NCBI GenBank assembly: GCA_030584065.1
Contig: CP129489.1
Location: forward strand, 1,078,640 to 1,142,639
DNA: 64,000 nt
Direction: 5' to 3'
Source: Flavobacteriales bacterium
GTDB taxonomy: Bacteria; Bacteroidota; Bacteroidia; Flavobacteriales_F; PHOS-HE28
Positions 50,982 through 54,082 of the stretch are shown here, piece by piece; the first letter of the stretch is position 1; each line of letters starts with the position of its first letter. The position numbers and the translations under genes were made by a program. A model generated the notes under the pieces. The model was not told the origin of the DNA and made no database searches. It was given only the letters and a program-made list of their open reading frames with translations.

Positions 50982-51034
50982 GGCGAAAAGGTGAGAGAGT
51001 ACGAGGGTACCTGCCCCGAGCAGAGTTGAAGGAT

Positions 51035-51191
51035 GGCGTGCCCCTCGCAAGAGCCTCGGGTCGCGTGCTACGCTTTAGCCGGACTTGTCGCGGCTCGCGG
51101 TCGCGGGCTGCGGGGGCTCCTGCGTCGCCGCCTCGCTCCACGCGCCCGCAAGGCCGCAACCGCGCCGGGCTGCCGCTTCTCCCGTTCACGC
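51035..51191. repeat. Dispersed intergenic repeat element, copy B
   Basis: It begins GGCGTGCCCC and ends CGTTCACGC, with CCGGGCTGCCGCTT in the right part, matching the termini and right half of the element at 13330-13421. The middle (CTACGCTTTAGCC...CGCCCGCAAGGCC) is longer and different. It occupies the 446-bp gap after ffh, at the border of the accessory region; the rest of the gap shows only the promoter at 51287. Confidence 0.45.
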
Positions 51192-51286
51192 AGATACCAA
51201 TGCAACCCCAGTTCGGGGTAAAGAGTCGCGTCGACCTTCCACCGTCGAACCCATCCCTCAGCTGGTAGGATTGACCTTGGGGCCCC

Positions 51287-51294
51287 TACATTTG
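51287..51294 (+). promoter_or_regulatory. -7 element TACATTTG
   Basis: Perfect TAnnTTTG, 133 nt upstream of the ATG at 51428. Confidence 0.5.
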
Positions 51295-51427
51295 TCAGAC
51301 TGTACCATGCTGTTTAGTTTTGCTGACACCTGTGGGCGACTTCGCCCCGCCCCTTGTCACAGAGAATGTAAGACCCACATGAGTCGAGAATCTTAAACAC
51401 AGAGTTGACTGCCAACAACCACCGACC

Positions 51428-53071
51428 ATGAGAACACGGGTGCTTCATCTTCTCACAGCGCTGCTCTGCATCGTTTGCAACTTCGTCAGCGCTTCAGCCC
51501 AATCCTGCTCTGGAGGGTCCAAGGACCGGATGGTGGAGTTTCCCACGCCGATATGGGGATTGAAAATATATGCTTGTATACATGGTGCGAACGAAGCGAG
51601 TATTGGCGCTCATCAGGACGTGAGTTGGGGCATCAAGAACACACGCACTGACACCTTTGAGGTTTCTTTCACCAAGGTGTACACTTTTCGCAGCGGCAAG
51701 GTGATCGAGAAAGCGTTCGGATGGGGTGCGATTAAAGTACTGCCAGGTCAAACTGTTTATGGTGGGAATTTCACAGGAGACGCGGATTTGACCGATATAT
51801 TTTTTCCGGAGGATTGCGATTGTCCCAAAGAATCCAAGCGGATAAAGTACCTCGATATACGTGACTTGGTGATCGTCAATCTTGGTGAACTCCGCCGCAA
51901 GCAAGAACAAGAGGAGCGCATACGAGTGGCCAACAATCAAGCGGAAAGGGAAAAAGCGAAGAAGGAAGAACCGGACCGCGTGGAGGACGGGAATAAAACG
52001 GAGAAAGAGCGTGAAGAAGCCGAGGAGAAGAGCGAGAAGGAGGAAAAGAAAGAAGACGGGGATGAAAGCAAGGGGTCGAAATCCTATTCGCCACCACCAC
52101 CTACCGCCAACCAGATCCGGATGGGGGAACTCCGTAACCAGGCCGTGCAACGACAGGCCCAAGGAACGGCGTACATCGCCGGATGGAGTACGGCCACGGT
52201 GGGCTTGTTGTTCTTGAAGTTCAATGATGGAGAAGGCAGCTACTTCCGGGGAGGCGGCTTCCACATTCGGGGCAACTTCGGTGTCGGCCTGTTCAACGTG
52301 AGCAACATGGTAGCGCATGAGTACACGACGACGGACTATGATGTGTACTACAACGGTTGGTTCGACCACCATGTGCATGAAGAGAGAGAGGACAGCACAT
52401 CCAACAATATCACAACTCTTGGGTTCTCTTTCTCTGCGGCCATGGACCTCTTCAATAGCCGGAACTTCATAATTGGGATGGAGGGCAAGTACAGTGCGGG
52501 TTTCTGGTTCGGCGGGTTGGGCGATGCGACTGTCACATCATCGACCACGCAAACAATCGGGCAATGGAGCTTGACCGGAAAAGCTGCTATTGGTACTGCC
52601 AGCGTGAAACTACTGGCCGGATATGGTTTGGAGAGAACGGAAGCCGCGGGATCAACGACCATCGCCATCGATCAATACTTAGGCAGCACTGACCCAGGTG
52701 TAAGTGTGCAGGACTTTTTGGATGAAACCACAGAGGTAACCCTGTTCGATGTGGAATATCTCAAGCCGAGCATTGGGCTTCGGTTTTCCAGCACTGACAA
52801 GCCCTTTCAAGTTGATCTTGAATACCATCAAGTATCACCTCGTGGGGATTACTATGGTGAGAGGCTCAAGCGAGATGGCGGGTCCGATATGTTCGGTGTC
52901 TCCCTCTCCATTACGCGGGTGAACAGGATGCGCTTTGAGATTTCCTATTCCCAGTTGAAGAACCGGTGGTGGGACCAGGATCCAGCGTCTTGCTGGATGG
53001 TCTCGCTCACTAAACAGTTGGATTATTTTAGCAAGAAATATTCCAAGAAGGGTATTCAATACATCCGATAG
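51428..53071 (+). CDS. Secreted protein with charged coiled coil and C-terminal beta-barrel-like region
   Basis: The 547-residue protein has a signal peptide (ending SASAQ), an N-terminal globular part with several Cys (about 25-155), a very charged Lys/Glu helix (about 155-225, for example EKEREEAEEKSEKEEKKEDG), a Pro spacer (SPPPPTANQ) and a C-terminal half of alternating strands with aromatic ends (FHIRGNFGVGLFNVSNM, IIGMEGKYSAGFWFGGLG, MRFEISYSQLKNRWW) typical of outer-membrane barrels. Its G+C content is visibly lower than its neighbours (codons such as AAA, GAA, ATT), suggesting recent acquisition. I do not recognise the family. Confidence 0.7.
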   Translation: MRTRVLHLLTALLCIVCNFVSASAQSCSGGSKDRMVEFPTPIWGLKIYACIHGANEASIGAHQDVSWGIKNTRTDTFEVSFTKVYTFRSGKVIEKAFGWGAIKVLPGQTVYGGNFTGDADLTDIFFPEDCDCPKESKRIKYLDIRDLVIVNLGELRRKQEQEERIRVANNQAEREKAKKEEPDRVEDGNKTEKEREEAEEKSEKEEKKEDGDESKGSKSYSPPPPTANQIRMGELRNQAVQRQAQGTAYIAGWSTATVGLLFLKFNDGEGSYFRGGGFHIRGNFGVGLFNVSNMVAHEYTTTDYDVYYNGWFDHHVHEEREDSTSNNITTLGFSFSAAMDLFNSRNFIIGMEGKYSAGFWFGGLGDATVTSSTTQTIGQWSLTGKAAIGTASVKLLAGYGLERTEAAGSTTIAIDQYLGSTDPGVSVQDFLDETTEVTLFDVEYLKPSIGLRFSSTDKPFQVDLEYHQVSPRGDYYGERLKRDGGSDMFGVSLSITRVNRMRFEISYSQLKNRWWDQDPASCWMVSLTKQLDYFSKKYSKKGIQYIR

Positions 53072-53208
53072 AAACCTGACTTCTGGTCCGTTTCGCGTCA
53101 TAGTACAGGTCAATTAGGAGTAGACTAGGTACGCGGATATCTGCGGCGCGAGGCAGGATGCGAGGCGGTCGTCGCACTGATTTCGGTTCTTCATACGTAT
53201 ATCCTGCG

Positions 53209-53216
53209 TAATTTCG
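53209..53216 (+). promoter_or_regulatory. -7 element TAATTTCG of the toxin-antitoxin operon
   Basis: Perfect TAnnTTCG, 20 nt upstream of the antitoxin ATG. Confidence 0.5.
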
Positions 53217-53236
53217 CTGTGTAAACATCCATCGCC

Positions 53237-53500
53237 ATGGACACCAAGCTCACCCTCAGCTTCGACGCGGGCGTGGCCGAGCGGGCCAAGGCCTTCGCCG
53301 AGGCGAACAACATCAGCCTCTCGCGGCTCATCGAGTTCATGCTGAGCAAGGTGACCGACAAGCGCTACCGCAGCCTAGATGAACTGCCCGTGAGCGATTG
53401 GATAAGCCAAGTAGCCGAAGGCGAAGCGACCTACGTGCGGAAGAACGCCGCGGAGCGGAACGTGAAGAAGGATTACCTGGCCAGCCGGAGGAAGCGGTAG
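53237..53500 (+). CDS. Antitoxin of a PIN-type module (DUF6364-like)
   Basis: The 87-residue protein begins with a ribbon-helix-helix-like segment (KLTLSFDAGVAERAKAFAEANNISLSRLIEFML), the expected DNA-binding and dimerisation part, followed by a C-terminal charged tail (VKKDYLASRRKR) that would bind the toxin. This is the arrangement of DUF6364/RHH antitoxins. The PIN toxin gene follows after 93 bp, an unusually wide gap that is filled by an inverted repeat. Autorepression through its RHH domain is likely. Confidence 0.82.
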   Translation: MDTKLTLSFDAGVAERAKAFAEANNISLSRLIEFMLSKVTDKRYRSLDELPVSDWISQVAEGEATYVRKNAAERNVKKDYLASRRKR

Positions 53501-53507
53501 AAGAGGT

Positions 53508-53581
53508 AACCGCAAAGACGCAAAGAGCGCAAAGGGTAATTCCGTACTGGGCTTCTTGGCGGTCTTTGCGTCTTTGCGGTT
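53508..53581. repeat. 19-bp perfect inverted repeat AACCGCAAAGACGCAAAGA between antitoxin and toxin
   Basis: Arms at 53508-53526 and 53563-53581 are perfect reverse complements separated by 36 bp. The arm contains tandem CGCAAAGA units. I recall the same CGCAAAGACGCAAAG sequence as a dispersed repeat in many unrelated bacterial genomes. It separates two genes that would normally be adjacent or overlapping. Confidence 0.75.
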
Positions 53582-53593
53582 TGAATTAACCCC

Positions 53594-54052
53594 ATGCCCC
53601 CCAAGCGAATCTTCCTCGACGCCAACGTCCTTGTCACGGTGCTCTGCAATGAGTACCCGCGTTTCGGGGCGTGCGCCCGCGTGCTGAGCCTCGCTGATGA
53701 CAAGCGCTTCGAGGTGTACACCTCACCGCTGTGCCTGGCGATCGGGGCCTACTTCGCGGAGAAGACGTCTTCGTCCCGCATCGGCGGGAAGAACGGGAAG
53801 AAGCTGGCCCGGAGGAAGATCGCGCTGCTGGCGGAGAAACTCCGGGTCACCACCATGGGAGCCAAGGCTGTGGAGCGCACCATGGCCGATCCACGCATCA
53901 CGGACATCGAGGACGGGTTCCAGTACTTCTCAGCAGTCGATGCGGGCTGCACGAGCATTATCACACATGACAAGCGCGACTGGAGATTCGCAGCGATGGA
54001 GGTGCTTGCCCCGGAGGACTTCCTGCTGAAGCATGCTGTGAGGAAGGCCTGA
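53594..54052 (+). CDS. PIN-domain toxin (VapC-like ribonuclease)
   Basis: The 152-residue protein has the PIN acidic residues: FLDANVLVTVL (first Asp), a central helix with a Glu region, and the C-terminal DGFQYFSAVDAGCTSIITHDKRDW (two further Asp in D-x-x-x-x-x-x-A-x-D and T-H-D-K-R-D). Enzymes of this type cleave RNA and are neutralised by the upstream antitoxin. Length is usual. A basic insertion (SSSRIGGKNGKKLARRK) sits between the first two motifs. Confidence 0.85.
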   Translation: MPPKRIFLDANVLVTVLCNEYPRFGACARVLSLADDKRFEVYTSPLCLAIGAYFAEKTSSSRIGGKNGKKLARRKIALLAEKLRVTTMGAKAVERTMADPRITDIEDGFQYFSAVDAGCTSIITHDKRDWRFAAMEVLAPEDFLLKHAVRKA

Positions 54053-54055
54053 CCG

Positions 54056-54063
54056 TACGTTCA
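54056..54063 (+). promoter_or_regulatory. -7-like element TACGTTCA
   Basis: Partial match to TAnnTTCG with a second candidate CACATTCG at 54062-54069. Either gives a leader of about 7-15 nt before the ATG at 54083. Confidence 0.3.
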
Positions 54064-54082
54064 CATTCGGGGCACTTTCCCG

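Follow-up and report, generated by a model that had tools for sequence, protein, structure and literature searches.

A perfect hairpin separates a putative antitoxin gene from a PIN-domain gene

In the window (the whole stretch of 64,000 nt analysed here), a DUF6364 gene for a putative antitoxin is followed by a gene for a PIN-domain protein, a putative RNase toxin (Table 1). The PIN domain scores above its Pfam cut-off, as in PIN toxin–antitoxin systems, and the pairing with an upstream putative antitoxin gene is conserved at 28 loci in the genus and 27 outside it. The locus resembles VapBC-like PIN modules in having a small gene and then a PIN gene on one strand, normally overlapping; it differs from them in that the first gene is DUF6364 and this copy is split by a palindrome. 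We found no significant relative of the toxin in a sequence search of solved structures, no paper on DUF6364 in the one literature collection searched and no sigma-70-like site in a promoter scan around the gap, which covered this one promoter type only.

Table 1 Features of the DUF6364–PIN locus, in window coordinates
Feature	Coordinates	Strand	Remarks
DUF6364 gene, putative antitoxin, 87 aa	53237..53500	+	ORF; Pfam PF19891, E 1.5e-15, 57.8 bits vs cut-off 27.3
Whole 93-bp gap between the DUF6364 and PIN genes	53501..53593	.	Missing in homologous pairs from outside the genus
5′ arm, perfect 19 nt, AACCGCAAAGACGCAAAGA, units CGCAAAGA-CGCAAAGA	53508..53526	+	
Extended 5′ arm, three 8–9-nt units	53508..53534	+	27 nt, 93% complementary
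20-nt spacer separating the extended arms	53535..53554	.	
Extended 3′ arm	53555..53581	-	27 nt, 93% complementary
3′ arm, TCTTTGCGTCTTTGCGGTT, exact reverse complement of the 5′ arm	53563..53581	-	
PIN-domain gene, putative RNase toxin, 152 aa	53594..54052	+	ORF; Pfam PF13470 PIN_3, E 1.9e-12, 48.5 bits vs cut-off 27

An earlier, sequence-only reading of this DNA had described a 93-bp gap between the two genes, filled by a perfect 19-bp inverted repeat. The open reading frames, which end at 53500 and resume at 53594, give exactly this gap, and every coordinate of the two arms was right. Between the stop codon of the DUF6364 gene and the hairpin lie 7 nt, and the loop of the hairpin contains no ORF. 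Allowing at most one mismatch, CGCAAAGACGCAAAGA occurs in the 64 kb only in the two arms and in none of 100 shuffles, and the RNA of the gap folds with −44.3 kcal/mol (z = −6.0 against dinucleotide shuffles); the shuffle count and the fold together rule out a chance origin of the repeat. No known RNA family scored above threshold (a MIR1437 match over the hairpin reached 23 bits, against a cut-off of 168). By eye, there was no clear target-site duplication at the module or at other copies, the ends of which are not fixable to the base.

Two other genomes were compared at this locus. G001, from the same species and 83% complete, gave no toxin match and is therefore unusable as a same-species comparison. 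On contig C175 of G002, the place syntenic with window positions 51000–54080 lacks both the DUF6364–PIN pair and an upstream 547-aa ORF, and is thus an empty site for the whole region, not for the hairpin alone. A stretch of ~140 nt within ~51035–51219 of the window is another dispersed repeat: genomes of the genus contain it at many sites, with 70–86% identity.

The gap is derived and the overlap ancestral

The sequence-only reading had taken such gene pairs to be normally adjacent and had suggested comparing the locus in relatives with and without the repeat. Outside the genus the premise held without exception: all 27 DUF6364–PIN pairs scored overlap or abut, with intergenic distances of −11 to +3 nt, mostly −4. 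Within the genus the arrangement is mixed, 9 of the 28 pairs being adjacent (−4 to +9 nt) and 19 gapped (35–151 nt). We scored a hairpin where the inverted repeat of a gapped junction was better than in all of 30 simple base shuffles of it, as was so for 12 of the 19 gapped junctions; 10 of the 19 contain at least two units in each half. The remaining 7 gapped orthologues and all 9 adjacent ones are without a hairpin. The 8–9-nt unit of the hairpin varies by species and reads CGCAAAG, CGCAGAG, CGCGGAG or CACGGAG.

On a tree of both proteins, in which several nodes are weakly supported and the loci, being of one genus, are not independent, the overlap lies at the base (outgroup and basal lineages), at least four changes of state are needed and the 4-nt overlap also occurs nested within gapped clades. 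Two sister pairs with support of 100 differ at the junction: L048 has a hairpin whereas L045 has an overlap, and L049 carries CGCCAAG units whereas L046 carries CRCGGAG. The unit of L037, AAGGTGAG, is of another class. We conclude that the gap is derived, with the overlap as the ancestral arrangement.

Similar hairpins occur in an unrelated operon gap and across phyla

The gap between paaC and paaD, in an unrelated operon of the same genus, served as a control junction. Here too, the inverted repeat beat all shuffles in 12 of 19 gapped junctions, at least two units were present in each half in 10 of 19, and the units were equally varied (CGCCAAG, CGCAAAG, CGCAACG and CGCAGAG). The exact equality of the counts is a coincidence; what matters is the similarity, which means that the module is not a special place. 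Because this unrelated gap carries like hairpins equally often, a special role of the repeat in the toxin module is not supported, and module-specific conservation of the hairpin is ruled out. At four loci (L339, L341, L345 and L353), another short palindrome, approximately GTCGACC...GGTCGAC, fills or enters the paaC–paaD gap.

Searching the genome for other copies, proposed earlier as a check for a mobile repeat, yielded them in the genome itself, in the genus and in many phyla. The window's own genome (3.92 Mb, one contig) has related copies near 236.7, 251.9, 694.1, 2586.3 and 2599.6–2600.3 kb, together with five hairpins built of the sister unit CACAGAG, each of them running from TCACC or TAACC at its 5′ end to GGTGA at its 3′ end. 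The gap palindrome itself has the ends TAACC...GGTTTGA; most other copies read TCACC...GGTGA. Of the 44 genomes of the genus, 23 contain a match to a strict degenerate hairpin pattern and none a match to its reversed control. Beyond the genus, the exact CGCAAAG hairpin is present in at least 114 stretches from many phyla, and the phyla and groups among the matches listed include Verrucomicrobia, Acidobacteriota, Flavobacterium, Proteobacteria, Chlamydiae, Planctomycetota and Chloroflexi. The sequence-only reading had allowed that the repeat would have no special role if it lay in hundreds of unrelated intergenic places and the toxin had its own promoter; we did find it in many such places. Such dispersed extragenic palindromic copies are a hallmark of REPs and REPINs.

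Since the units differ by species and an unrelated operon gap is filled likewise, we conclude that the hairpin is a copy of a dispersed palindrome superfamily that has settled in operon gaps. The idea that the repeat is a later insertion gains support on both counts, because the overlap is ancestral and the repeat belongs to a dispersed family. No transposition event or excision was seen in the genomes compared. A search of one literature collection found no paper with the exact unit strings, which is not proof of novelty. In G031 (C159, 13124–13573), three copies of a hairpin-bearing unit follow one another at a spacing of ~193 nt.

Many GxxExxY genes lie within longer palindromes

The repeats at 2599.6–2600.3 kb adjoin and enclose a gene of the GxxExxY family (TIGR04256/PF13366), an uncharacterised family of PD-(D/E)XK nuclease-like proteins; the gene scores 141 bits against a TIGR04256 cut-off of 35 and matches Pfam PDDEXK_3. 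The second GxxExxY gene of this genome is likewise enclosed, by CGCAGAG/CGCGGAG units. With these two loci (L027 and L363) flanked by units of its family, the palindrome shares its ends with a longer, putatively mobile coding element, as MITEs do. The longest GxxExxY reading frame of L027 (5737–6225) begins within the flanking repeat (MGRVHRQDAKSARD...), which leaves the true start of this gene uncertain.

Of the 44 genomes of the genus, 40 contain GxxExxY, as do 74 of 148 genomes sampled across the phylum. The domain was placed in 135 loci, 130 of which were tested for flanking inverted repeats. The flanks scored 18.3 on average; moving 700 nt outward lowered the mean to 9.1, and pairing flanks from different loci gave 9.2. 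The pooled 99th percentile was exceeded at 68 of 130 loci but at none of 128 far flanks. A smaller flank run had the same outcome in the genus and phylum-wide sets taken separately. At 94 of the 130 loci, at least two units of the same class stand on each side in hairpin orientation; the wrong orientation gives 18 of 130. The array arms show an extra, modest self-match at 8–9 nt (0.35–0.39 versus 0.26–0.29).

The units also match the proteins that they flank. Proteins with a GPG[LM]xE motif are accompanied by CRCNRAG units in 67 cases and CRCNRAT units in 3, versus 8 and 27 for other motif types (Fisher p = 8e-15, which overstates independence because the loci are related by descent). Both combinations exist within single genomes, for example in G033, where L262 and L400 combine GPGLLE with CRCNRAG, and L380 and L398 combine GHGLLEKPY with CRCNRAT. 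We conclude that, at the level of sequence, protein motif type predicts unit type. The candidate nuclease residues D68, E78, K80 and Q92 are nearly invariant (pattern D, E-x-K, Q-x3-Y), and a nuclease fold also fits the weak Cas4-like matches; a sequence search against solved structures gave no significant relative (best E 0.31). Among the matches listed, 1 of the 114 hairpin loci of other phyla (stretches of up to 8 kb) has a GxxExxY gene, which is as expected for non-autonomous copies and is not direct support. Titles and abstracts in the one collection searched contained passing mentions of GxxExxY and no link to repeats. Beside the GxxExxY genes of L262, L245 and L250 lie tandem arrays of a whole half-element with a period of 43–53 nt.

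Four-helix-bundle genes of the S23 type (TIGR02436), present in all 44 genomes of the genus, also lie between inverted repeats of short units (mean 17.0 versus 8.8 in both controls). The unit sequences at these loci differ from those at GxxExxY loci, so the two protein families appear each to have a unit vocabulary of their own: three or more GxxExxY-type units were found at 2 of 30 four-helix-bundle loci versus 114 of 130 GxxExxY loci (Fisher p 1e-17). Separate vocabularies strengthen specificity, and fit proteins that are movers and proteins that are passengers. Across the genus, TIGR02436 genes of L443–L472 lie inside tandem-unit inverted repeats of GTTGTCA, GGGTAGT, AATGGTG, AAGCCTC and GATTGCT.

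Origin of the hairpin

We consider it likely that the repeat is a non-autonomous, REPIN- or MITE-like palindrome in an operon junction, probably mobilised by GxxExxY proteins. Members of the superfamily would consist of tandem 8–9-nt units (roughly CRCNRAG, CRCNRAT or CRCRACG), with a purine-rich 5′ arm and a matching 3′ arm. One palindrome would have landed in an operon junction at which the ancestral genes had an overlap of ~4 nt and where insertion was presumably tolerated. Longer members carry the gene of the PD-(D/E)XK nuclease-like GxxExxY protein between their arms, and these proteins may be what recognises the units and disperses the short copies, by analogy with RAYT transposases, which are thought to spread REPs. 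That longer palindromes often enclose a GxxExxY gene hints at the mover and does not amount to proof. The insertion would abolish the stop/start overlap and place a strong hairpin between the cistrons, with the likely consequence that toxin translation is uncoupled and the mRNA is more open to cleavage at the hairpin. A lowering of toxin expression relative to antitoxin, which the sequence-only reading had suggested for the hairpin, is a possible effect.

Selection could instead have retained the hairpin in this module as an element for mRNA processing or attenuation that holds toxin below antitoxin. This would suit the very stable fold, the retention of a hairpin in 12 of 19 gapped orthologues despite differing sequence and the largely purine-for-purine variation of CRCRRAG-type units, to which, as read by eye, changes in the other arm correspond. 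We judge it very unlikely: an unrelated operon gap carries hairpins just as often (12/19) and varies in the same way, like hairpins occur in many unrelated places, and 7 of 19 gapped orthologues and all 9 adjacent ones manage without. Termination of the antitoxin transcript is rejected as having next to no probability; the hairpin does begin 7 nt past a stop codon, but the stem is followed by no U-run, a terminator scan around the gap found none, and the toxin would be severed from its operon.

A gap that arose once, its hairpin then altered in place through point mutation and homogenisation of its units with no new insertions, agrees with the similar short outer flanks of several orthologues (GAAGAG before the hairpin and a C-rich run before the ATG), but is unlikely given that unit family, or the very presence of a gap, differs between well-supported sisters, that the unit of L037 is of another class and that the 4-nt overlap is nested in gapped clades. 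The GxxExxY genes could also be mere passengers, with another agent moving the palindromes or recombination spreading them, because four-helix-bundle genes are enclosed as well, inside tandem-unit inverted repeats of other sequence; most hairpins, moreover, are distant from any GxxExxY gene. This has an appreciable chance of being right, but we doubt it, since unit class tracks GxxExxY subfamily and the unit sets of the two protein families are nearly exclusive (114/130 versus 2/30).

Beyond mobilisation of the short palindromes, we tentatively propose, leaning somewhat towards doubt, that GxxExxY proteins may act as the enzymes of mobile elements of a class not described before. In this class, a nuclease gene would lie inside inverted arrays of 8–9-nt units, ORF-less derivatives would be the palindromes seen across phyla, and each subfamily would read its own unit. 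A parallel S23/four-helix-bundle class with other units might then bring the intervening sequences of 23S rRNA and the TAACTGA-type repeats under the same way of life. At the level of the module the story is ordinary, a common palindrome having probably hit a toxin–antitoxin junction. GxxExxY, a family of unknown function, gains in the unit arrays a concrete candidate partner, and a possible source is offered for palindromes that recur in many phyla. Because two unrelated operons in one genus both show 12 of 19, perfect hairpins in operon gaps, even position-conserved ones, may be products of mobile-repeat turnover rather than regulatory elements.

Relation to known repeat systems

REPs and REPINs with their RAYTs (REPtrons) are likewise short, dispersed intergenic palindromes, often inside operons, in several phyla (PMC3733652, PMC3116915, PMC8266576), and a relative of the gap element likewise encloses a nuclease-type gene. 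Unlike them, the copies read here lack a conserved GTAG or CGTC tag; a GTAG near 53497 belongs to the stop codon context of the putative antitoxin gene and is not a palindrome tag. The gap element also differs in being built of tandem 8–9-nt units and in its candidate partner, which is PD-(D/E)XK-like, whereas that of REPs is a Y1 tyrosine transposase. With MITEs, the gap family shares a length of 70–300 bp, inverted repeats, intergenic location and the absence of coding capacity, the gap element itself being short and non-coding with terminal inverted repeats. It differs from MITEs in that no target duplication was found, in having no known DDE transposase partner and in that its terminal repeat is a unit array.

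In the intervening sequences of 23S rRNA, a small S23p ORF is bordered by complementary, stem-forming ends, and the stem is cleaved by RNase III (PMC4990558). In the genus, four-helix-bundle genes likewise sit within inverted repeats, but the gap element has no ORF and lies in a protein operon, not in rRNA, and its long relatives encode GxxExxY. The TAACTGA repeats of Beggiatoaceae, Cyanobacteria and Bacteroidetes are horizontally scattered short units next to start codons, spread by an unknown mechanism (PMC4679880); they differ from the gap element in unit sequence and are mostly direct repeats. At one locus of the genus, L461 (G017:C162), arrays of the related unit AACTAACAACTGACAACTAACAACTGA, which resemble TAACTGA repeats, lie on both sides of a four-helix-bundle (TIGR02436) gene.
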